DNA of 39,329 nt from a virus. Positions within the stretch are counted from its first letter, which is position 1, and every line of letters begins with the position of its first letter. The position numbers and the translations under genes are program-made. This document shows, one piece after another, positions 829-21,056 of the stretch. The stretch spans positions 1 to 39,329 of the IMG/VR virus record IMGVR_UViG_3300046000_009440. One strand, 5' to 3'. Under the pieces are notes generated by a model. The model saw nothing but the letters and a program-made list of their open reading frames with translations, was not told the DNA's origin and did no database searches.

Positions 829-875
829 TATTATAAATAATATTATAAAATATTGCAGTTATTACTTGCTATTTT

Positions 876-911
876 AAAATAAATTTCGTATATTTGTATA
901 AAAATTATTTT
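876..911 (+). promoter_or_regulatory. Promoter-in-hairpin leader of the GIY-YIG gene
   Basis: TATATTTG at 889-896 matches the Bacteroidota -7 consensus TAnnTTTG, 16 nt before the ATG. Around it, 876-886 (AAAATAAATTT) can pair with 902-911 (AAATTATTTT) with one bulged A, placing a hairpin next to the start codon in any read-through transcript. A transcript starting ~7 nt after the box would lack the left arm. All pairs are A-T, so the hairpin is weaker than its two counterparts at 19100 and 20540. Confidence 0.5.
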
Positions 912-1631
912 ATGCAAACAATTACAAAAGAGTATTTTGAAAAATCAGGTATATACTGTATTTTAAATTTAGTAAATCAAAAGAAATACATTGGTAGTTC
1001 TAAAAATTTACAAGAACGATTAATTAATCACAAATGTCAATTATTAAAAAATAAACACGGTAATAAAATATTACAAAATTCTTGGAATAAGTATTCTAAA
1101 GATAATTTTATATATATTATATTGGAATATTGTGAAAAAGAAAAATTAATTGAAAGAGAACAATTTTATATTGACAATTTAAATCCAGAATTTAACATTG
1201 TAAAAGAGGTTTTACAACATAGTAGTTTTGGTAAAAAAATTCATCAATATGATTTAAATGGTTATTATATTAAAAGCTACAATTATATTGTTGATGCTTG
1301 TAAAGAAAACAATATACATCAATCTACAATTTGTAGATTTTTAAATGGTACATATAAAAAAGGTGGAAATTTTTTATGGTCTTTAGATTATGTAGAAAAA
1401 ATGAAACCTTATATGAAAAATTTAAAAAATAATGATTATATTAAAAAACAAGTAGAATTAATAGATTGTAATAATTTTGAAACAATAAAAACTTTTAACT
1501 CATTCAAAGAATGTGCTAAATATTTAAATTGTTATCAAAATGAAATTTCTAAAGGAATTAAAAATAATCGTAAATTTAAAAAGAAATATTTTATAAAATT
1601 AAAACAGGCTACGCTAAACAGCGATGTTTAG
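912..1631 (+). CDS. GIY-YIG intron homing endonuclease
   Basis: A 239-residue protein encoded inside intron 1, between P1 and the catalytic core. Residues ~12-100 form the GIY-YIG nuclease domain: GIYCILN, KKYIGSS, then an R...H pattern and a catalytic Glu region (LIEREQFYIDNLNPEFN). The C-terminal half has a NUMOD1-like DNA-binding unit (KIHQYDLNGYYIKSY ... STICRFLNG) and a second, similar helix-turn-helix-like stretch near the end. Such enzymes cut intronless alleles and spread the intron. ATG 912 is chosen over the in-frame TTG at 894 because the TTG lies inside the -7 promoter box. The gene ends in TAG, one of the few non-TAA stops here, and its 3' end runs into the intron core. Confidence 0.9.
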   Translation: MQTITKEYFEKSGIYCILNLVNQKKYIGSSKNLQERLINHKCQLLKNKHGNKILQNSWNKYSKDNFIYIILEYCEKEKLIEREQFYIDNLNPEFNIVKEVLQHSSFGKKIHQYDLNGYYIKSYNYIVDACKENNIHQSTICRFLNGTYKKGGNFLWSLDYVEKMKPYMKNLKNNDYIKKQVELIDCNNFETIKTFNSFKECAKYLNCYQNEISKGIKNNRKFKKKYFIKLKQATLNSDV

Positions 1632-6365: not shown

Positions 6366-6436
6366 GGTCGGGTGGTGTGTTTGGTAAACACAACTAGTTT
6401 TTAGGAGGGTAGCAAGTTCGATTCTTGCCCTGACCA
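6366..6436 (+). tRNA. tRNA-like gene with non-canonical anticodon arm
   Basis: Acceptor GGTCGGG (6366-6372) pairs with CCTGACC (6429-6435) with one G.U; the discriminator is A6436. The D arm GTGT-GTTTGGTAA-ACAC (6375-6391) and the T arm GCAAG-TTCGATT-CTTGC (6412-6428) are textbook. Between them are only 20 nt (6392-6411) instead of 22-23, and they do not fold into a 5-bp anticodon stem; the best is CTA-GTTTT-TAG. TTT (Lys) or TAG (Leu) could be read as an anticodon, but neither is supported by a stem. It lacks an encoded CCA. Confidence 0.55.
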
Positions 6437-7929: not shown

Positions 7930-8589
7930 ATGAAAAAAATAGGAATAGTAGGTTGGAATACAGGTGAAAATAGCTTTGGTGTAACTAAGCCATATATTGA
8001 CTGGTTAAGTAACTTTGGTATTGTACATATATTATCTCCACAACAAGGAATTGTTGAAGGATTAGATCTATTAGTATTGCCAGGTGGACTAGATATAGCC
8101 CCTCAATCAATGAATCAAGTACCAGGATTCTTTACATCAAATACAGATGTTATGAAGCAGTACTTTTATGAAAACAATTTAGATCAATACATTGAAAACA
8201 ATACGCCAATATTTGGTATATGTTTAGGTTTTCAACAACTATGTGTAAAATTTGGAGGAACGTTGGTTCAAAATCATCCTTTTGATTACTCCACAAAACA
8301 CAGAGCAGAAAGAGTTGATACTTTAATTGGAACAGATAATTTGTTTAAAATTATTGAGAAAACAAGTTTTACAAAAACAAAGTATGAAGTAAATTCTTTA
8401 CATCATCAAGGTTGTTTTAGTGACTTTGAAGGAACTGATGTTGAAGTATTAGCTTTTGATAAAACATTTAAAAATGTAGAAATTGCAAAATTTTCACATA
8501 ATATTTATGGAGTTCAATACCATCCTGAAGAAATAAATGATGGAATTGCTTCAATAATTGTTAAAAAATTATTACAAAATGGAAACTAA
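7930..8589 (+). CDS. Class I glutamine amidotransferase / peptidase C26-like protein A
   Basis: A 219-residue class I GATase-fold enzyme. The nucleophile elbow is GICLGFQQ (Cys98). The C-terminal catalytic pair lies in YGVQYHPEE (His198, Glu200), and a second conserved stretch is SLHHQG (156-161). These features are typical of the C26/PuuD group, which hydrolyses gamma-glutamyl bonds, as well as of amidotransferase subunits. No synthetase domain is attached; it stands 21 nt after the GGCT-like gene and overlaps the ATP-grasp gene by 11 nt, which suggests translational coupling. Likely role: removing gamma-glutamyl groups, or supplying ammonia to the neighbouring ligases. The start follows a long A-run leader. 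Confidence 0.87.
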   Translation: MKKIGIVGWNTGENSFGVTKPYIDWLSNFGIVHILSPQQGIVEGLDLLVLPGGLDIAPQSMNQVPGFFTSNTDVMKQYFYENNLDQYIENNTPIFGICLGFQQLCVKFGGTLVQNHPFDYSTKHRAERVDTLIGTDNLFKIIEKTSFTKTKYEVNSLHHQGCFSDFEGTDVEVLAFDKTFKNVEIAKFSHNIYGVQYHPEEINDGIASIIVKKLLQNGN

Positions 8590-9496
8590 AAGAATAAGAC
8601 ATTCTGATTTATTTACATCTAGAAAAAGTCCTGTAAGTAAAAAAACAAAAACAATAACTCAGTTCAGGCCAATTATATTATCAAGACATCCAAGTCACAA
8701 TATACTTAGAGCTAAGTTTAAACACATCGTTCCTTTGCCTTATAGATCAGTGGTTAGATTTGGTTCTTCTACAGAGATGGAAGATACAATAGCTAAAGGT
8801 GGTCAACGTATAGAAGTTAATACAGTTCAAAGTATTAAGAATTCAGCAAATAAATTATTGATGAAACAAAAATTTACAGAAGCTGAAGTAAGAACTGCAG
8901 AATGGATACAATATACAAACCTAGAAACTTTACGTGGATGGGCCTCAGAAAAGTTTCCAATAGTAGCAAAAGCTCACTTTGGTTCAAAAGGCAAAGGCAA
9001 TACTTTAATAAAAAGCGCTGAAGAACTAGAAGAATGGATTAAAGAACATAGTCCTGTAAATTATATTTATGAAAAATTTATGAACTATGGTCACGAATTT
9101 AGATTACATGTAACAGAACAAGGTTGTTTTTATGCTTGTAGAAAAGCTTTAAAAGCAGATGTTCCTGAAGATCAGAAATGGAGAAGGCATGATGACATAT
9201 GTGTTTGGTTCTTAGAGGAAAATGAAAACTTCTTTAAACCAAATTCATGGAATGACATAGTATCTCATTGTGTTCTTGCTTTAAAATCAATTGGAGCAGA
9301 CATTCTATCTTTTGATGTTAGAGTTCAAACTCCAAAAAATAAAGATGGTGAAGCAAGAGAATATCAAGATTATATTTTATTAGAATGCAATTCAGCAAGT
9401 TCAATGAATAATGGAACTGATGAAATATCAGTGTGCGCTAAAAAATATATGGAAGAAATAAGAAAAGTAATATTGTCAAAAACTAAAGGAATATAA
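8579..9496 (+). CDS. ATP-grasp ligase
   Basis: A 305-residue ATP-grasp enzyme. ATP-binding Lys131 is in PIVAKAHFGSKGKGN, with the Gly-rich loop following. IYEKFMNYGHEFRLHV (163-178) is the usual linker with Glu and Arg. The metal-binding part is SFDVRVQ (Asp246, Arg248) and ILLECNSASSMN (Glu269, Asn271). Such enzymes make peptide or amide bonds through an acyl-phosphate, as RimK-type ligases do. The ATG at 8579 overlaps the preceding GATase gene by 11 nt and is preferred over 8558, which would overlap by 32 nt. Substrate unknown; the cassette context points to a carboxylate-amine ligation on a peptide or amino acid. Confidence 0.87.
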   Translation: METKRIRHSDLFTSRKSPVSKKTKTITQFRPIILSRHPSHNILRAKFKHIVPLPYRSVVRFGSSTEMEDTIAKGGQRIEVNTVQSIKNSANKLLMKQKFTEAEVRTAEWIQYTNLETLRGWASEKFPIVAKAHFGSKGKGNTLIKSAEELEEWIKEHSPVNYIYEKFMNYGHEFRLHVTEQGCFYACRKALKADVPEDQKWRRHDDICVWFLEENENFFKPNSWNDIVSHCVLALKSIGADILSFDVRVQTPKNKDGEAREYQDYILLECNSASSMNNGTDEISVCAKKYMEEIRKVILSKTKGI

Positions 9497-9497
9497 A

Positions 9498-10496
9498 ATG
9501 AAAGAAAAAATAGTAGTATTATTTGCTGCAAATATGATTGATAGATCTATTGTTAAATTTTTAGAAACAGAATTCGAAGTGTCAGTTATTGACATGAATC
9601 CTGAAAGATTAAAAAAAGTAAGTGAAGACGATGTTAATTTACTAAAAACAGTAGATTTAATGATTTTTACTGGAGGAGAAGACGTTGATCCAGAAAGATA
9701 TTACGAAAGTAGAGGTAAAAATACTTATGTAAATAAAAAAAGAGATCAAGATGAGTTCTTATATCTTTATCCAGAATCAACAAAAACTTACTTTATGAGC
9801 AGTATTCCTAAATTAGGAATATGCAGAGGAGCTCAATTACTTACAGTATATAATGGAGGCAAGTTAATTCAACATGTAGAAGGTCATAAAAATAACGAGC
9901 AAGTTATTGAAACAACTTCTGGAACAACATATACAATATCTTCAGATCACCATCAAATGATGAATCCTTTTGAATTAAAGAAAAATAGTTATGAATTAAT
10001 AGCTTGGTCTAAGTATTTTCAAAGTAATCAATATTTAAATGGTAAAAATGAAAACATAAAGTTACCAAAAAATTTTTTAGAGTCTGAAATAATTTATTAT
10101 AACAACTCTAATTCTTTATGTATTCAACCTCATCCAGAATGGTGTATAGGCAGTAAAGGTTCTGAATATTGTTTAAAGCTAATTAATAAGTATTTACTAA
10201 AAAAATCAATTGCAAATAAAAAAACAAATGAAGAATTTGTAGATTACTCTGTTCCTCTAGGAATGAATTCAATACCACATGGGTGGATGAGATCTGGGGT
10301 AGATGGAAATTCTTATATTTTTAATGGAGAATCATTTATATTAGCATCATCGTATAATTATGTTAATGAAATAGGAATTAAAACTACGTCAAAAAATGCT
10401 ACGAAACCAATACAAGATAGCTTAGTTGATGATTATTTTAGTTTTTTATCTAACACAGAAGAACAAGTTGAACCATCAAATAATGATGGTTGGTAA
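9498..10496 (+). CDS. Class I glutamine amidotransferase / peptidase C26-like protein B, with C-terminal extension
   Basis: A 332-residue second class I GATase-fold protein, distant from the one at 7930. The nucleophile is in LGICRGAQ (Cys109), a conserved ISSDHHQMM stretch lies at ~148-155 and the His/Glu pair is in CIQPHPEW (His212, Glu214). Residues ~236-332 are an extra domain with MNSIPHGWMRSGVDGNSYIF, ending in an acidic tail EPSNNDGW. The tail resembles that of the SSB-like protein (DSNW). It begins 1 nt after the ATP-grasp stop. Two such hydrolases in one cassette suggest separate tasks, for example deprotection of a gamma-glutamyl intermediate and ammonia supply. Confidence 0.85.
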   Translation: MKEKIVVLFAANMIDRSIVKFLETEFEVSVIDMNPERLKKVSEDDVNLLKTVDLMIFTGGEDVDPERYYESRGKNTYVNKKRDQDEFLYLYPESTKTYFMSSIPKLGICRGAQLLTVYNGGKLIQHVEGHKNNEQVIETTSGTTYTISSDHHQMMNPFELKKNSYELIAWSKYFQSNQYLNGKNENIKLPKNFLESEIIYYNNSNSLCIQPHPEWCIGSKGSEYCLKLINKYLLKKSIANKKTNEEFVDYSVPLGMNSIPHGWMRSGVDGNSYIFNGESFILASSYNYVNEIGIKTTSKNATKPIQDSLVDDYFSFLSNTEEQVEPSNNDGW

Positions 10497-10523
10497 ATTA
10501 ACACTTAAAAAAACATAAAAAAA

Positions 10524-11342
10524 ATGGAAATAAAAATTAAAAAACACGATATAAAATTAGGCAGCGATCCTGAAATATTTATTGAAAAAGATGGAGAAAT
10601 AGTTTCTGCAGTAGGAATGATTCCAGGAACAAAAAGAGATCCTCATCCAATAACAAATAAAGGTCATTTTATTCAAACAGATAATATTGCATTTGAATTT
10701 AATATTCCTGCATGTGAAACAGCTGAAGAGTATGTTGAAAACATTAATTTTGTAAAAGAACATTTGGAAGTTTTAGCTAATGCAAATGGCTGTAAGTTAT
10801 CAACAATAGTTTCAGCTGAAATAAATCCTATTCACTTACAAACTCGTCAAGCAAAAGAATTTGGATGTGAACCAGACTTAAATGTTTACCTTCAAGATTT
10901 AAATCCAAAACCAGATTCAAACACTAATCTTAGATGTGTAGGTGGACATGTTCATATTGGATATCCAAACCCAGACTTTGAAGTCAGCGAGAGAATAGTA
11001 AAAATGTTTGACATTATGGTTACTTTACCTTCTTTATTAATAGATAAAGATGATAGAAGAAGAGAATTGTATGGTAAACCGGGTTCTTTTAGACAAAAAG
11101 ATTTTGGCGTAGAATGCAGAGCTTTATCTAATTTCTGGATTCATTCAGATGAATTAATAGCTTGGGTTTTTAATCAAACAATAAAAGCTGTTGAAATTGT
11201 TTTAGACAATCAAGATGATGTTTATATTAATAAATTTTCAGAAGAAGTTAGAGAAGCTATAGAATCAAACAATAGAGATTTAGCTAAAATTCTTATTGAA
11301 AATATAGCCGAAGTAAGTCAAACAAAATTAGAATTTGCTTAA
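10524..11342 (+). CDS. COOH-NH2 amidoligase (phage glutamine-synthetase-fold ligase)
   Basis: A 272-residue enzyme of the phage-type COOH-NH2 ligase family, which shares the glutamine-synthetase fold. Motifs in order: KLGSDPEIFI (11-20, metal Glu), QTDNIAFEFNIPA (51-63), CVGGHVHIGY (138-147, His142 and His144) and the Arg-rich nucleotide loop DDRRRELYGKPGSF (176-189), then FGVECRALSNFW (194-205). Family members are predicted to join a carboxylate to an amine with ATP (Iyer and Aravind's amidoligase survey). It lies 27 nt after GATase B and 26 nt before the class II GATase gene, all in one direction. Target unknown. Confidence 0.88.
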   Translation: MEIKIKKHDIKLGSDPEIFIEKDGEIVSAVGMIPGTKRDPHPITNKGHFIQTDNIAFEFNIPACETAEEYVENINFVKEHLEVLANANGCKLSTIVSAEINPIHLQTRQAKEFGCEPDLNVYLQDLNPKPDSNTNLRCVGGHVHIGYPNPDFEVSERIVKMFDIMVTLPSLLIDKDDRRRELYGKPGSFRQKDFGVECRALSNFWIHSDELIAWVFNQTIKAVEIVLDNQDDVYINKFSEEVREAIESNNRDLAKILIENIAEVSQTKLEFA

Positions 11343-11368
11343 TATTTAAATTAACAAAATAAAAAAAA

Positions 11369-13351
11369 ATGATAAAAATTATATTAATATTAACATTAAT
11401 ACATTATATCGGATTCTATTTATTTAAACCAAGCAGGAATACATTATCTTGTGGTTTATTTGGATGGGCGGGCAAAGATGTCAAAAAATTCAATAAAGAT
11501 AAATTTGATAAATTAGGAATACTAAATGTAGAAAGAGGTAAAAATTCTTGTGGAGTATCTTTTGACGGAGATATACATATAGGTCTAGATTCTAAAAAAA
11601 TGTATTATGACTTCATAATAGATAGAGAAATCAATCCTAAAAAATATCCAGTTGTAATTGGACATACAAGACAATCTAGTGTTGGTGTTGTAAATGTTCA
11701 TAATGCTCATCCTTTTGGATTTGGGCAAAATGGAGAAGATTTTGAATTTATTGGAGCTCATAACGGAACTTTGAAGAATCATAAAGAATTAGCTAAAAAG
11801 TATTATGTAGATGATGTTTTTGAAACATTTTACAAAAATGCTCATGATGTTGAAGTTACTACTACTAGAGATAAAATAGATTCTGAAATATTACTAGAGA
11901 TAATATGGAGAAGTAAAAACTTTAAAGTATTAAGTGAGTATGTTGGAGGAGCTGCATTAGTCTTTACAGACACAACTAATCCTAATGTGCTATATCTTTT
12001 TAAAGGCAGTTCTAAAGATTACACTAGTAGTTCAAAAGAAACTGTTGAAAGACCATTATTTGTTTATGTTGAAAATAAAAACTCAATGTATTTCTCTTCT
12101 ATAGAAGATTCTCTTAAAACAATTGGCGGAAAAGACAATAGCATTATAGACATAGAACCAAATGTAGTTTATAAAATAACTAATGGTGATTTTATCAACT
12201 CAGAAATAATATCGGTAACTAGAATAAATGCAACACAAAATCTTCCAATAAACTATGGGAGTGGAAGATATGGTGCAGATTATGGTTATGGTTATAATCA
12301 TGAGTTTTATGAAGTTTATGAAGAACACAAGTCAATCGCAAAAAAAGAAAAAGAGGAAGAGACGAAAACTTCATTAATAACTCTTCCAACCTTGAAAGAA
12401 CAAGGAAAAGAAACAGAAAAAATAGAAGGTAAATCATTATTATTAAATGCATATAGTGAAAAGCCTCTTAAAAATGTAAATGAATACAAAGGCGTTCCTT
12501 ACTTCAACATGTTTAGATGGTGGTCAAATGGACAATTAGTTACTGGTATTTATACTTGGATAAATAATTATGGTTATTATTATCTAGGAGAGACTAATAA
12601 AGTTGCAACAGAAAGATTCTTTTTTTATTTAGATAAAGTTTTTGACGGAAAAATATTTTACGATAATGATGCTTTTACAAAAGGAGTTGTTCCTTTTAAA
12701 AGTACAAACGTAGTTAATCCAACACTATTTTATTTTGTAGAAGGAATCCAGTTAAAAACTAAATTAGATTATGCAGCAATGTATAATGTGCATTCTACTT
12801 TAAAAAGAAACCCTAAAGAATATTTAGACTACATCAAAGCATCTAAAGTTTCTACTCATCCAATTTTGAATTTAAATTTCAAAGCAAAACCAATAAATCA
12901 GCAATCTTTACTTAAAGATGGAGAAGAATATACTGGTAAAATACAAATTTTAGGTTCTGAAAAAATATATGAAATTTCAAAAGGCAATCTAATTGAAGTA
13001 AAAAAAAGTGAATATTTTTCAAATCTAAATCAAGAAGGTTCTTTTCATGTTGAATTTATAGATAAAGATCAATCATCGATAGATTTTGACGATTTTGACG
13101 ATATAAAACTTGATGACGAAAGAATAGGTAGTTTAGATGAAGAATTGCTATTAGACGCTATGATTAATCAAGAAGAGGAAGAAAATGAATTGATTGATGA
13201 AATATGTAACGAAGGCTTTATAGAGCCATTAAAGGATTTTCAACAAATAAGAAGTAAATTGTTTAATAGATATACAGATAACAATCTGGCTATAAAAGTT
13301 ATAAGTTTTATAGATAATACTATTGCCGATATGAATTCTTTTATTAAATAA
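11369..13351 (+). CDS. Class II glutamine amidotransferase with hydrophobic leader and large C-terminal extension
   Basis: A 660-residue protein. Residues 28-290 form an Ntn-type GATase: SCGLFGWAG with the predicted nucleophile Cys28, RGKNSCGVSF, VIGHTRQSS, NAHPFGFG, IGAHNGTLKNH and DSEIL. In this family the Cys must become the N-terminal residue. Here it is preceded by 27 residues that begin MIKIILILTLIHYIGFYLF, a hydrophobic segment like a signal or anchor, so cleavage before Cys28 is needed. No in-frame ATG, GTG or TTG lies closer. A charged linker (~310-350) leads to a second region with VPYFNMFRWWSNGQLVTGIY, and the C-terminal ~130 residues are very acidic. It would release ammonia from glutamine for the flanking amidoligases. 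Confidence 0.83.
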   Translation: MIKIILILTLIHYIGFYLFKPSRNTLSCGLFGWAGKDVKKFNKDKFDKLGILNVERGKNSCGVSFDGDIHIGLDSKKMYYDFIIDREINPKKYPVVIGHTRQSSVGVVNVHNAHPFGFGQNGEDFEFIGAHNGTLKNHKELAKKYYVDDVFETFYKNAHDVEVTTTRDKIDSEILLEIIWRSKNFKVLSEYVGGAALVFTDTTNPNVLYLFKGSSKDYTSSSKETVERPLFVYVENKNSMYFSSIEDSLKTIGGKDNSIIDIEPNVVYKITNGDFINSEIISVTRINATQNLPINYGSGRYGADYGYGYNHEFYEVYEEHKSIAKKEKEEETKTSLITLPTLKEQGKETEKIEGKSLLLNAYSEKPLKNVNEYKGVPYFNMFRWWSNGQLVTGIYTWINNYGYYYLGETNKVATERFFFYLDKVFDGKIFYDNDAFTKGVVPFKSTNVVNPTLFYFVEGIQLKTKLDYAAMYNVHSTLKRNPKEYLDYIKASKVSTHPILNLNFKAKPINQQSLLKDGEEYTGKIQILGSEKIYEISKGNLIEVKKSEYFSNLNQEGSFHVEFIDKDQSSIDFDDFDDIKLDDERIGSLDEELLLDAMINQEEEENELIDEICNEGFIEPLKDFQQIRSKLFNRYTDNNLAIKVISFIDNTIADMNSFIK

Positions 13352-13355
13352 AAAT

Positions 13356-15080
13356 ATGTCTAAAAAAGTGATAAAAATAGTAACAACAATAAAAGGAGAA
13401 GAATTACCTATTTCTAAAACAAAAAAGTTTCCAAATGGATACTACAAAATAGGTGATGAAAACGTAGAGAACTCAGGAGATTGCTATAAAATAAATGATA
13501 AGTTTTATAGATTTGAAACTGGACAACTTGTATTTAATAACTCGATACAAAAATATCAATTATCAAGTAATGATGTAATTTACGGATTAATAGATAATAG
13601 TAAATTTGGTTATTTTAACAGAACTGAACCAGAAAAAATTCCATTAGTGTTAGAAAATGGAAATAAATCTTTTGCAATTAACGAAGAAGTATTAAAAAGC
13701 AATTTAGAATTTAGAGAAGAATTAAGTACTGGAAATTTTGTACACATATCTAAATTAAGTGCAAATAAATTTAATAAAATACTTCCTCCTAAAAATGAAT
13801 ACAAAACTAGTTTGCCTTATGACTCAAAGGGAATAACTGGTAGACATTCAGATCTCTATGAACGATTCTATGACTCAAAGATAAATAACAATTGCAATAC
13901 AGTTGCTGAAATAATTGACGGTTTATCTTTTGGATTAGAATTCGAAACAATTGCTGGATTTATTCCAGAAAGAATTACAAAAAAATTAGGATTAATTCCA
14001 CTAAGAGACGGAAGTATTAGTGGTTTAGAGTATGTTACCGTTCCGTTTAGTGGGAACAAAGGCGTTCAGGCAATAGTAGATGTATGTAAAGTTTTGAAAG
14101 AAAGAACTGAATTCAACAATTCTTGTTCATTTCATTTACATATTGGAAACGTTCCAAGAACTCCTGAATTTATATTAGCGTTTTTAAAAGTAAGTTCTTT
14201 TGTTCAAAACGATATATATAGTATGTTCCCGCTATACAAACAATATAATATGGGTATAAAAAATAAAAATTATAGTAAACCATATGATATGTTTGATCTG
14301 TTTAGCAAAATGGATAGTGTAATTGATAAAAAAAATATAAATAAAAACTTCAATGTTTTATTTAGTTTTTTAGCATCAAATAAAGCTTCTTTTAGCGACT
14401 ATTCAAATGATTTGAATCTTGTAGATAGTCATCCATTAGATCCAAGTGGTAATCAAAAATGGAATGTAAATACAAGATATTTTTTACATAATTTCATTCC
14501 TTTGATTTTTGGTAACAAGCAAACAGTGGAATTTAGGGTTCATACTCCAACATTTGATTATTATAAAATTATAATGTTCTTGTTAATGAATAGTATTTTA
14601 GTAAAAACAGCTATTAAATACGAAAAAGAAATATTACAAGATCCTTTATTTTTTGATAAAATAAAAAATAGCGGAGAGTCTAAAATGAATTTGTCAAATT
14701 TACTGTATTTTTATAGAAGAAATAATGTAAAAGACGACAACGGAGCTTACATTGTTAATTCATTATGTAGATACATTAGTTATAGAAAACAAAAAGCTGA
14801 ATCTTTGACTGCTCAAGGAATGATTGCTTTTGAAGATCATTCAATTGCAATGGACAAAGAGATGGAATTTGATACAAACAGAATTTTAGATAGTAATCAA
14901 AAATTAAATGTATCAGAACAACCAGTTGCTCTTGAAAGTATTGATGCAAATCAATATCACTATGTAACTAAAAAAACAATTCAAGTTAATAAAGGCTATT
15001 TTAATACTCATGAAAGCTCAAGAGATATGACTTTATCTGAAGCTTTAAGTCGTCGTAAAACAACAAATCAAACTTTTTAA
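13356..15080 (+). CDS. Amidoligase_2-type ligase
   Basis: A 574-residue enzyme of the second amidoligase family (glutamine-synthetase fold). The core spans ~185-450: SFGLEFET (191-198), LRDGSISGLEYVTVPF (216-231), CSFHLHIGN (257-265, His260 and His262) and the NTRYFLHNFIPLIFG / TVEFRVHTPTFDYYK strands with the conserved Arg and Asn. The N-terminal ~180 residues are strand-rich and not recognised; they may bind the substrate. It begins 4 nt after the class II GATase stop, which suggests the two act together, ammonia or an amine from one being used by the other. It is the last gene of the seven-gene cassette. Confidence 0.87.
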   Translation: MSKKVIKIVTTIKGEELPISKTKKFPNGYYKIGDENVENSGDCYKINDKFYRFETGQLVFNNSIQKYQLSSNDVIYGLIDNSKFGYFNRTEPEKIPLVLENGNKSFAINEEVLKSNLEFREELSTGNFVHISKLSANKFNKILPPKNEYKTSLPYDSKGITGRHSDLYERFYDSKINNNCNTVAEIIDGLSFGLEFETIAGFIPERITKKLGLIPLRDGSISGLEYVTVPFSGNKGVQAIVDVCKVLKERTEFNNSCSFHLHIGNVPRTPEFILAFLKVSSFVQNDIYSMFPLYKQYNMGIKNKNYSKPYDMFDLFSKMDSVIDKKNINKNFNVLFSFLASNKASFSDYSNDLNLVDSHPLDPSGNQKWNVNTRYFLHNFIPLIFGNKQTVEFRVHTPTFDYYKIIMFLLMNSILVKTAIKYEKEILQDPLFFDKIKNSGESKMNLSNLLYFYRRNNVKDDNGAYIVNSLCRYISYRKQKAESLTAQGMIAFEDHSIAMDKEMEFDTNRILDSNQKLNVSEQPVALESIDANQYHYVTKKTIQVNKGYFNTHESSRDMTLSEALSRRKTTNQTF

Positions 15081-17787: not shown

Positions 17788-18768
17788 ATGCAATTAGATA
17801 AAAAAATATTAAGTGACATTACGGTATATTCAAAATATGCTAAACATTTACCTGAGTTAGAAAGAAGAGAAACTTGGGAAGAACTGGTTGAAAGGAATAT
17901 GCAAATGCATATGAAAAAACATCCAATAGTTGAAAATGACATTAAAGCTATTTATGATGATTTTGTTTTGACTAAAAAGATTTTACCATCAATGAGAAGT
18001 TTGCAATTTGGAGGTAGAGCAATAGAAATGAATAATAGTAGAATTTATAATTGTGCTTTTTTACCAATTGATGATATTCGTAGTTTTAGTGAAACTATGT
18101 TTTTATTGTTAGGCGGAACAGGCGTAGGCTATAGTGTTCAAAATCATCATATTGACAAATTGCCTGAAATTAGAAAACCTAATTTTGATCGTAAAAGAAA
18201 ATACGTAGTTCAAGATTCAATCATAGGTTGGGCTGATGCGGTAAAGGTATTATTTAAGTCTTATACTTCTGGCGGTAATCATATTGAGTTTGATTTATCA
18301 GACATTAGACATAAAGGTGCTTTATTAGTAACGGCTGGTGGTAAAGCGCCAGGACCTGAGCCTTTAAGAATTGCTTTAGTTAAAATTGAAGCAATACTTC
18401 GTGAAAAAGAAGACGGAGTAAAACTTACAGATATTGAGTGTCATGATATTCAATGTCATATTGCTGATGCAGTATTGGCTGGTGGTATTAGACGTGCAGC
18501 AATGATTAGTTTATTTGATTTAGATAGTGATGCAATGTTGAACTGTAAAGCCGGCAACTGGTGGGAAAACAATCCACAAAGAGGTCGTGCAAACAATTCA
18601 GTAACATTGTTACGTCATAAAATAGACAAAAAAACATTTGATAAAGTATGGGAGCGTATTGAAGCTTCAGGATCAGGAGAGCCAGGAATCTACCTTACTA
18701 ATGATAGAGATTGGGGCACTAATCCTTGTTGTGAGATTGCGTTACGTCCTTATCAATTCTGTAACCTT
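17788..18768 (+). CDS. nrdJ: Class II (B12-dependent) ribonucleotide reductase, exon 1
   Basis: The first 327 codons of a monomeric adenosylcobalamin-dependent ribonucleotide reductase of the Lactobacillus RTPR type. Cys89 (RIYNCAFLP) corresponds to the first redox Cys. The end of the exon reads NPCCEIALRPYQFCNL, giving Asn312, radical Cys314, Glu316 and redox Cys325. The spacing equals that of N406, C408, E410 and C419 in the L. leichmannii enzyme. GGTGVGYSVQN and AGGIRRAAMISLFD are also typical. The exon ends after CTT at T18768: AACCTT (18763-18768) pairs with the intron guide GAGGTT (18779-18784). CGT and CGC Arg codons are more frequent than in neighbouring genes, a hint of foreign origin. 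Confidence 0.93.
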
Positions 18769-18821
18769 TAATTTCTAGGAGGTTGTAAAAGACAGAGAAT
18801 TGCTGGGATATCTAAGTATAA

Positions 18822-18914
18822 TATATAGTCCTATAACAGGTGTAATAGTCAAAAACAAGTCAGGAAAATTATTGAAATCCTGATTAAAATAAGGTTCGAG
18901 TCCTTATTATATAT
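18822..18914 (+). tRNA. tRNA-like fold inside the P5 loop of intron 3
   Basis: The acceptor TATATAG (18822-18828) pairs with TTATATA (18907-18913) with one G.U. Next come TC, a D arm CTAT-AACAGGTGTA-ATAG (18831-18848, with GG in the loop) and a perfect T arm TAAGG-TTCGAGT-CCTTA (18890-18906). Between D and T arms are 41 nt with a hairpin TCAGGA...TCCTGA around a 12-nt loop, so the anticodon domain is not canonical. It may be a captured tRNA that has become part of the intron, or a coincidental elaboration of P5. Function in translation is unlikely. Confidence 0.4.
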
Positions 18915-19099
18915 TATATATGACAATCAGCAGCCGAGCCCTACAAGGGAAGGTTCAGAGACTATCCGTAAGGAGTACACTCAAGTGAGTGGAAGCACTG
19001 TCATCTACACAGTAGATATGATATAGTCCGAACTGCATAGAAATATGCAGATGGGTAAAATTTAACAATAATTTAACATTAAAAATTAGGAATCTTAAA

Positions 19100-19140
19100 T
19101 TGAATTTTGTATATTTGTATTATTACAAAATTCAAAATAT
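19100..19140 (+). promoter_or_regulatory. Promoter-in-hairpin leader of the intron 3 HNH gene
   Basis: TATATTTG (19110-19117) matches the Bacteroidota -7 box. A perfect 12-bp inverted repeat surrounds it: TTGAATTTTGTA (19100-19111) with TACAAAATTCAA (19124-19135), ending 5 nt before the ATG. In read-through pre-mRNA this hairpin would cover the start region. A transcript started by this promoter, at about 19124, would lack the left arm and leave the start free. Confidence 0.65.
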
Positions 19141-19602
19141 ATGCAAGAACTAATTAAAAACAGAGAAGGTAATTTAGTATCAACTACACATAGAGAATGT
19201 TCTAATTCAAAATGTGATATAATATTTAAAATAACTTCAAAAACTGTAACTTTATGTCCAAAATGTAACTCAGAAAGAGTTAAAAGTATTAATCCTATAA
19301 AAAGAATGCTTGCTAGAGCTAAATCTAGAAGTAAAACTAGAAATCACGAATTCAATATTGAATTTGAAGATATTATAGTGCCAGAATATTGTCCAATTCT
19401 AAATATAAAATTAGAATATAATAGTGGAAGAGCTGGTGGTGAAAGTAATTCACCTTCTTTAGATAGAATAGATAATACAAAAGGATATGTTAAAGGAAAT
19501 GTTATTGTTATTAGTCAATTAGCAAATTGTATGAAAAGTAGTTCTTCACCTGAAGAATTAAAACAGTTTGCAAAATGGATTAATAAAGAATTCCCTGATT
19601 AA
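19141..19602 (+). CDS. HNH homing endonuclease in intron 3
   Basis: A 153-residue protein with two N-terminal Cys pairs (HRECSNSKC and TLCPKCNS), likely a zinc ribbon, followed by an HNH-type core: VPEYCPILNIKL, SPSLDRIDNTKGYVKGNVIV and ISQLANCMKSSSSPEELKQF. This is the layout of small phage HNH enzymes that nick intronless targets and spread their intron. It lies after the ribozyme core and ends 27 nt before the 3' splice site. It has its own promoter-like leader, so it can be expressed apart from the reductase. Confidence 0.88.
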   Translation: MQELIKNREGNLVSTTHRECSNSKCDIIFKITSKTVTLCPKCNSERVKSINPIKRMLARAKSRSKTRNHEFNIEFEDIIVPEYCPILNIKLEYNSGRAGGESNSPSLDRIDNTKGYVKGNVIVISQLANCMKSSSSPEELKQFAKWINKEFPD

Positions 19603-19629
19603 GTTTAACGAACTTAATTGAACAAAATG

Positions 19630-20508
19630 GTAGAAATAAATATGAGTAATATTTTAAATCAAGAAGATTTAAATTCTCGCGCGCGCGCCGCTTCTTATTT
19701 AGCAACATTACAAGCATCATATACAGACTTTCATTATCTTAGAGATATATGGAGAAAGAATACTGAAAAAGATGCTTTATTAGGAGTTTCTATGACAGGT
19801 ATTGCTTCAAAAAGTAATCTTGAATTAAACTATCAAGAAGCATCAAGTATTGTAATTGAACAAAATAAAGTATTAGCTGAAATCTTAAATATCAATCCTG
19901 CAGCAAGAACTACTGCTGTTAAGCCTGCTGGAACTACTAGTTTAGTTTTAGGTACATCATCAGGCATTCATGCTTGGCATAATGATTATTATCTAAGAAG
20001 AATGAGAGTTAATAAAAATGAAGCATTATATCAATATTTAGCAATTTATCATCCAGAGTTAATTGAAGATGAATATTTTAGCCCAAACACTACAGCCGTA
20101 ATTACAGTGCCTCAAAAAGCACCAGAAGGAGCCATAACAAGACACGAATCAACTATAGATGCTTTAGAAAGAGTTAAGCTTATTTCTAAAGACTGGGTTA
20201 AAACAGGTCATATTAAAGGTCAAAACACCCATAACGTATCTTGTACTGTTTCAGTAAGAAACAATGAATGGAAGATTGTTGGAGAGTGGATGTGGGTTAA
20301 TAAAGATTATTATAATGGTTTATCTGTACTTCCTTATGATGGAGGAACTTATAAACAAATGCCTTTTTCTGACTGTACAAAAGAAGAATTTGAAAAACTA
20401 ATGCTTTCTTTAAAAAATGTAGATTTAACAAAAGTTATTGAAATTCAAGATAACACAAAACTTAATGACCAACTAGCTTGTTCGGGAAATAATTGCGAGA
20501 TTTCTTAA
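19630..20508 (+). CDS. nrdJ: Class II ribonucleotide reductase, exon 2
   Basis: The last 292 codons plus TAA. The exon opens VEINMSNI directly after G19629; the joined enzyme has 619 residues, shorter than the 739 of the Lactobacillus enzyme. AVKPAGTTSLVLGTSSGIHAW is the conserved phosphate-binding and barrel segment. The C terminus ACSGNNCEIS has the Cys-x4-Cys pair that re-reduces the active site through thioredoxin or glutaredoxin. The in-frame ATG at 19627 belongs to the intron. A run of 13 G/C bases (19678-19690), coding RARA, is out of character with the AT-rich genome. The phage depends on host cobalamin for this step. Confidence 0.93.
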   Translation, partial: VEINMSNILNQEDLNSRARAASYLATLQASYTDFHYLRDIWRKNTEKDALLGVSMTGIASKSNLELNYQEASSIVIEQNKVLAEILNINPAARTTAVKPAGTTSLVLGTSSGIHAWHNDYYLRRMRVNKNEALYQYLAIYHPELIEDEYFSPNTTAVITVPQKAPEGAITRHESTIDALERVKLISKDWVKTGHIKGQNTHNVSCTVSVRNNEWKIVGEWMWVNKDYYNGLSVLPYDGGTYKQMPFSDCTKEEFEKLMLSLKNVDLTKVIEIQDNTKLNDQLACSGNNCEIS

Positions 20509-20530
20509 TATTTATTAGGAAATATCAATT

Positions 20531-20561
20531 ATTTTTCGTATATTTGTAAAAAACAAATATT
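20531..20561 (+). promoter_or_regulatory. Promoter-in-hairpin leader of the free-standing HNH gene
   Basis: The stretch ATTTTTCG and then TATATTTG (20539-20546) nearly repeats the leader of the GIY-YIG gene. The box is itself the left arm of a perfect 8-bp inverted repeat, ATATTTGT (20540-20547) and ACAAATAT (20553-20560) with an A5 loop, ending 1 nt before the ATG. Read-through mRNA could hide the start; promoter-derived mRNA could not form the stem. Confidence 0.6.
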
Positions 20562-21056
20562 ATGGAATTTAAGAAAAATTGTTTAAATTGTAAAAAAGAA
20601 ATTATTTATAATAACAAGTACAACTTAGAAAGATCTATAAGAGATGAAAGTCTTTGTAGATCTTGTACTTGTTTAATTAGAAATAAAAGCGGAGAATTAA
20701 ATAATTCAAAATCTAAAAATAGTCAATGGAAAGGTTATAATGAAATACCTTATGGGTGGTTTAGTAGATATTTTGAAAGAGCTAATAAAATTAAAAGAAC
20801 TGGTAGTATTACAATTGAAGATGTTTATAATCTTTGGATAAAACAAGATAAAAAATGTAAATTATCAGGAATAAATATTGGTTTTTATGATGATGGTAAA
20901 ACACATACTTGTTCTATTGATAGAATTGATAGTTCTAAAGAATATGAAATTGACAATATACAGTTAGTTCATAAACATGTAAATTTAATGAAAAATCATT
21001 TTAATAATGAATATTTTATAAAAATATGTAAATTAATAGCAAAAAATAATGAATAA
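20562..21056 (+). CDS. Free-standing HNH endonuclease
   Basis: A 164-residue protein with an N-terminal zinc ribbon (CLNCKKE ... LCRSC) and a HNH-type core at ~100-150: CKLSGINIGF, HTCSIDRIDSSKEYEIDNIQ and LVHKHVNLMKNHFNNEYF. It sits between the reductase stop and the SF2 helicase, overlapping the latter by 8 nt, and no group I core surrounds it. It is related in layout to the intron 3 enzyme and may cut intronless or endonuclease-free alleles of neighbouring genes in rival phages. It has its own promoter-like leader. Confidence 0.85.
   Translation: MEFKKNCLNCKKEIIYNNKYNLERSIRDESLCRSCTCLIRNKSGELNNSKSKNSQWKGYNEIPYGWFSRYFERANKIKRTGSITIEDVYNLWIKQDKKCKLSGINIGFYDDGKTHTCSIDRIDSSKEYEIDNIQLVHKHVNLMKNHFNNEYFIKICKLIAKNNE

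Follow-up and report, generated by a model that had tools for sequence, protein, structure and literature searches.

Control of homing endonuclease genes by an RNA hairpin is already known for I-TevI, I-TevII, I-TevIII and segB of phage T4 and for mobE of phage Aeh1 (PMC2988022), and the T4 precedent is supported by experiments (PMC2988022, PMC3014915). I-TevI moreover represses itself, through an operator that resembles its homing site and lies at its late promoter (PMC2988022). In the literature that we found, experimental hairpin control of homing nucleases is confined to T4-like phages. Here we describe a layout of this kind that recurs in other phages and around other promoters, including phages of hosts that do not use Shine-Dalgarno sites.

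The stretch of DNA analysed, hereafter the window, is a 39-kb IMG/VR virus record from a phage of Bacteroidota-type bacteria, and a phage collection contained no close DNA relatives of it. The window carries an nrdJ-like class II ribonucleotide reductase gene in two exons (Table 1). Joined in frame at 18768|19630, the exons give a product that aligns to an Oceanospirillum phage ribonucleotide reductase, gapless at the junction. Intron 3, which the Rfam scan at the gathering threshold had missed, was recovered by a local scan in which RF00028 matches its catalytic core at 18759-19050 with 61.1 bits (gathering 50); on the strength of both the core match and the in-frame junction, it is classed as a group I intron. 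HNH1 lies within this intron, 3' of the catalytic core, and HNH2 stands free. Both proteins match PHROG endonuclease, endonuclease VII and HNH families; a Pfam search with the two gave no match, including none to the Pfam HNH domain.

Two more group I introns are found at 1582-1820 and 2339-2555 of the window (Rfam 88.5 and 68.8 bits), the first overlapped at its start by the GIY-YIG open reading frame. The window also has an Rfam tRNA match at 6366-6436 (37 bits, no ARAGORN call) and, at 7930-15080, a cluster of amidotransferase- and COOH-NH2-ligase-like genes (PHROG 3815, GATase), which perhaps serves peptide modification. In Rhizobium phage RHph_N3_13 (MN988507), an HNH1 homolog (L289:1804-2250) that lies between the two portions of an interrupted ribonucleotide reductase gene bears the annotation 'postulated decoy of host sigma factor (Srd)'; a homing endonuclease is the likelier identity. 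PHROG 1400 and 4592 bear the Srd name too and match HNH1, and the label may have spread by homology.

Table 1. Features of the nuclease genes and their control regions, in window coordinates.
Feature	Position	Strand	Basis or remark
GIY-YIG control region: -33-like TTG, box 889-896, leader that pairs with upstream DNA	865..911	+
GIY-YIG homing endonuclease	912..1631	+	PF01541 7.9e-12; PHROG 314
nrdJ-like class II ribonucleotide reductase, exon 1	17788..18768	+	PHROG 367
Core of intron insertion (putative homing) site AATTCTGTAA	18755..18764	+	in exon 1
Group I intron 3	18769..19629	+	Rfam RF00028 and in-frame exon junction
HNH1 -33 element TTAGG	19086..19090	+	spacing to box as in HNH2, L002, L207, L214, L215
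HNH1 hairpin left arm TTGAATTTTGTA	19100..19111	+
Homing-site-like AATTTTGTAT	19103..19112	+	8/10; overlaps HNH1 left arm
HNH1 -7 box TATATTTG	19110..19117	+	consensus PMC9723704, PMC6847099
Predicted HNH1 transcription start	19122	+	hairpin loop; from PMC9723704 spacing
Inverted homing-site-like AATTTTGTAA	19123..19132	-	9/10; at HNH1 right arm
HNH1 hairpin right arm TACAAAATTCAA	19124..19135	+
HNH1 intron-encoded endonuclease, 153 aa	19141..19602	+	PHROG 3322 endonuclease 7e-35
nrdJ-like exon 2	19630..20508	+	gapless alignment of joined product
HNH2 -33 element TTAGG	20515..20519	+
HNH2 -7 box TATATTTG	20539..20546	+
HNH2 hairpin left arm ATATTTGT	20540..20547	+
Predicted HNH2 transcription start	20551	+	from PMC9723704 spacing
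HNH2 hairpin right arm ACAAATAT	20553..20560	+
HNH2 free-standing endonuclease, 164 aa	20562..21056	+	PHROG 3322 / 1035; just 3' of nrdJ

Judged by sequence, the boxes ahead of the HNH genes are Bacteroidota sigma-A promoters of the form TTAGG-N19-TATATTTG: the -7 TAnnTTTG and -33 TTG elements in the consensus of the Bacteroidota primary sigma factor (PMC6847099, PMC9723704) are present at the fixed spacing, and TTAGG is one base off the TTTGG that holds this position in many ordinary phage promoters. With the box placed at -12 to -5, as in Flavobacterium psychrophilum (PMC9723704), we infer transcription starts in or next to the hairpin loops of HNH1 and HNH2 (Table 1) and at 901 for GIY-YIG. 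A scan of the window for promoter-like boxes between genes and ahead of a start returned only three, all before nucleases. The promoter is nevertheless not special to nucleases, since two relatives (G001 and G004) have it ahead of two ordinary genes each.

Other genes, too, have the Bacteroidota promoter in phages related to that of the window (L284:1801 (-), L285:3821, L284:17220 (-) and L286:81); they encode a product beginning IKEFL..GYLKEGG and a very large protein, and for this reason some of the phage genes are probably transcribed by the host RNA polymerase. Strong boxes of the form TTTCGTATATTTGTA, followed by similar non-coding sequence, occur at L082:636, L138:3340, L087:1025 and 1111, and L151; L082 and L138 have a common leader, L087 has two tandem copies and L151 six boxes, and these loci are possibly small RNA genes of Bacteroidota phages. 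In the nuclease genes L095, L089 and L090, the box stands 4-5 nt ahead of the ATG, so that a leaderless mRNA is predicted.

An earlier note on this DNA had described a 12-bp stem around the box of HNH1 and an 8-bp stem with the box as its left arm before HNH2. Both are borne out by the anatomy: the HNH1 arms pair perfectly over 12 bp around a 12-nt loop, with the 3' end 5 nt ahead of the ATG, and the HNH2 stem has 8 bp, a 5-nt loop, a 3' end 1 nt ahead of the ATG, and 7/8 box bases inside the left arm. The HNH1 stem is the longest of the window and its sole perfect stem of at least 11 bp (loop 3-14), where dinucleotide shuffles lead one to expect 0.25 stems of 12 bp per window. Stems of 8 bp are commonplace (39 in the window, 24 in shuffles); of these perfect stems of at least 8 bp, only the two of HNH1 and HNH2 end within 20 nt 5' of a gene start (2/39, 0.7 expected). 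Four sequences of the HNH1 stem showed a single covarying pair, which was non-significant. The position of HNH1 in an intron, 50 nt past an Rfam match that ends in P9, could suggest that its stem belongs to the intron fold, or that such stems are intrinsic terminators or RNA-processing sites rather than translational switches. We consider this scarcely credible: the core match stops 5' of the stem, free-standing genes outside introns have the same layout, and no T run follows the stems.

The predicted folds of the two kinds of transcript differ sharply. Opening the start region of GIY-YIG, HNH1 or HNH2 takes 7-8 kcal/mol if the RNA is read-through, and 0.1-0.2 kcal/mol if it begins at the predicted start, which for both HNH genes excludes the left arm. 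By this cost in read-through RNA, the three nucleases rank 1-3 of 34 window genes, in a ranking that used 909 as the GIY-YIG start (the gene starts at 912). Against shuffled upstream DNA, the start-region opening energy reached p = 0.003 for HNH1 and p = 0.027 for HNH2, and was non-significant for GIY-YIG taken alone (p = 0.13). The leaders in the window contain no Shine-Dalgarno site; it is the start region itself that is paired. Flavobacterium mRNAs likewise have no Shine-Dalgarno sites, and structure near the start tunes their translation (PMC6847099).

The reading that we favour, with a probability of roughly 70%, is that promoters of mobile nucleases are nested in a start-proximal inverted repeat so that read-through RNA is silenced and the gene's own RNA is open. 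Each such gene would have a host-type promoter within an inverted repeat ending at or near its start codon. RNA reading through from the phage operon would contain both arms and fold, hiding the start region so that no nuclease is made; for HNH1, the fold would also keep ribosomes off the intron. RNA from the nested promoter would begin inside the loop or with the right arm, without the left arm, and would be open for translation. Self-repression may come on top of this in the HNH1 family, where sequences close to the nuclease's own insertion site cover the promoter and start. The analysis establishes the anatomy, the predicted folds and their enrichment at nuclease genes; from these we infer the activity of the promoters, the transcription starts and the effect on translation.

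A comparison with genes that have the same promoter bears on whether this pairing is selected. The comparison set comprised 81 genes from other viral contigs with an exact TTTYGTATATTTGTA ahead of the start. Nuclease genes exceeded the ordinary genes both in pairing energy between the upstream part and the transcript (p = 0.0014) and in the change in start opening (p = 1e-4); with the window left out, the values are p = 0.015 and p = 0.002, respectively. The difference holds over nine settings with other start positions and context lengths; the sensitivity runs excluded L192 (GIY-YIG-like with HTH; Pfam MUG113/T5orf172), since its product is unlikely to be a homing nuclease. Individually, HNH2 and GIY-YIG are unexceptional, as 12-13% of ordinary same-promoter genes pair equally strongly. 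L207, L089 and L090 have the promoter and no strong hairpin, and L093, an ordinary kinase-like gene, has TATTTGT/ACAAATA pairing. The earlier note would have given up its reading if the same hairpins were common before ordinary genes; this is so in part, for HNH2 alone, whose upstream/transcript pairing is equalled by 12% of ordinary genes.

Such cases raise the question of whether a T-rich box and the A-rich leader that Bacteroidota genes need simply pair by chance, with the pairing unselected. The ordinary genes L093, L139 and L142 do have ACAAAT soon after the box, and 8-bp stems are common in the window, as would be expected of a by-product of composition. We nonetheless hold this explanation to be improbable. 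Pairing is far weaker in ordinary genes that have the identical promoter; shuffles that retain dinucleotide composition still leave nucleases separated from controls; and the layout recurs with sigma70-type promoters, as the homologs show.

For the homologs, upstream DNA was shuffled with dinucleotides kept, and 181 control ORFs gave 6.6% significant. Among held-out homologs of the free-standing nuclease of G001, the start was significantly hidden in 10/19 (53%, p = 5e-4), and among held-out HNH1 homologs with room for a promoter in 5/12 (42%; Mann-Whitney U p = 0.025, Fisher p = 0.002), in both cases with the reservation that homologs of common descent are not fully independent. The layout is thus enriched at mobile nucleases. 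That different stems share one layout, as first noticed in the window, proved to extend to homologs with other promoters: it is kept in L002 with the promoter TATCTTTG, and around sigma70-type promoters in L004 (TTTACA-17-TATACT), L009 (TTGACA-17-TAAAAC) and L228 (TTGACA-17-TATACT). The arms of L217 and L218 show a paired change (TTCACA/TGTGAA versus TTCGCA/TGCGAA), the stem spans the start codon in L213 and L212, and some homologs (L223, L228 and L299 are examples) have their Shine-Dalgarno site paired within the hairpin. In about half of the nuclease genes, no hairpin reaches significance. Several nuclease genes that lie directly 3' of an upstream gene or intron core have no such stem. As a signature for finding mobile genes, a use that the earlier note had proposed, the layout is accordingly weak, for about half of nucleases lack a significant hairpin and some ordinary genes have one.

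In the HNH1 family, the inverted repeat has a second property. In the close HNH1 homologs with readable exons, the surrounding intron interrupts the same gene at one and the same position, with AATTCTGTAA or a close variant at the junction, and the right arms of their hairpins closely resemble its inverse: TTACAAAATT in the window and L002, TTACATAATT in L004 and TTACAGAACT in L009. In these four, the right arm matches AATTCTGTAA at 9/10 positions, and the left arm at 8-9/10. When about 395 exon sliding windows were compared using words of 10 to 14, the junction was the most similar to the promoter regions. The operator-like site was spotted post hoc. When 415 exon decamers matched for AT content were ranked on held-out HNH1 homologs, outside the set that had formed the idea, AATTCTGTAA took first place (z = 3.8). 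The insertion site or its common variant occurs without mismatch in L302 and L303, and the held-out set also contains clear misses (L294, L289 and L305). The HNH1 promoter compared with the homing site alone was non-significant (p = 0.38 gapped, 0.12 ungapped). Target-like copies of the hairpin arms of free-standing homologs were sought in flanking genes, and none was found.

By way of resemblance, then, the HNH1 family has a homing-site-like sequence over its promoter, as in I-TevI autorepression. Because the inverted repeat holds near-copies of the insertion site over the promoter and start, we suggest that it is a self-repression operator as in I-TevI, a proposal to which we give not quite even odds. 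One could go further and hold that the repeat exists for binding and repression by the nuclease or its dimer, the RNA hairpin being a by-product. Both arms resemble AATTCTGTAA, which is the top decamer and the top exon window, and I-TevI does likewise at its late promoter (PMC2988022). The stems of L295, L299, L309 and L292, however, run on into sequence that has nothing in common with the site, and base-pair with the ribosome-binding region; L003 retains the site-like sequence yet uses a different hairpin; and the free-standing family has no such site in flanking genes. A repeat that serves DNA binding alone is thus unlikely. The extra stem of L295, L299 and L309, which pairs the ribosome-binding region and is unlike the site in sequence, argues that RNA pairing is selected in its own right. 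The earlier note took independent stems of one layout as selection for silencing nucleases in read-through RNA; the same-promoter comparison and the two held-out sets favour this, and the inverted repeat may also reflect a DNA operator.

Silencing of read-through RNA by a hairpin around the nuclease's own promoter remains our preferred reading. We propose more tentatively still than the operator itself that some 40 bp ahead of mobile phage nucleases combine a host promoter, a silencing hairpin and an inverted target pair as repressor site, rebuilt with one layout for each sigma factor in phages of Bacteroidota and sigma70-type hosts. Two questions become testable: is silencing in the RNA of the host gene a general requirement for mobile nucleases, and does the hairpin originate in a doubled target site? 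Moreover, the layout offers a way to connect nucleases with their DNA targets by reading sequence.

The design is not new in kind. In the insertion sequences IS10 and IS50, the start region of the transposase gene lies within an inverted repeat, by which the gene is silenced in RNA entering from outside; there the gene encodes a transposase, not a homing nuclease. The start regions of T4 genes e, soc and 49 are likewise held in an inhibitory stem, with late promoters in the DNA of the left strand in gene e, but these are ordinary phage genes under late promoters (PMC3014915). T4 segB and Aeromonas phage Aeh1 mobE are, as is HNH2, free-standing nuclease genes with a start-proximal hairpin, and mobE and HNH2 both lie in a ribonucleotide reductase region (PMC2988022). 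The segB and mobE hairpins sequester the ribosome-binding site, whereas the left arm of HNH2 is the promoter box itself, and HNH2 has a Bacteroidota promoter and no Shine-Dalgarno site.

HNH1 resembles T4 I-TevI (td intron), I-TevII and I-TevIII in its location as a nuclease ORF within an intron of a gene for nucleotide metabolism, in having its promoter nested in a hairpin with its own transcript, as predicted here, lacking the left arm, and in the homing-site-like sequence over the promoter (PMC2988022, PMC3014915). At the sequence level, the promoter inside a start-proximal inverted repeat before an endonuclease gene, as in I-TevI, is present. In contrast to I-TevI, the promoter is not a phage late promoter (TATAAATA) but TTAGG-N19-TATATTTG, as on ordinary Bacteroidota-phage genes; since it is of the host sigma-A (Bacteroidota) or sigma70 type, no temporal switch is implied. 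The window hairpins also pair the start region and not a Shine-Dalgarno site, and the two hairpin arms are an inverted pair of the operator-like sequence. What is new relative to the T4 systems is thus the use of other promoters in many unrelated phages and, in the HNH1 family, a hairpin that contains inverted near-copies of the intron insertion site.
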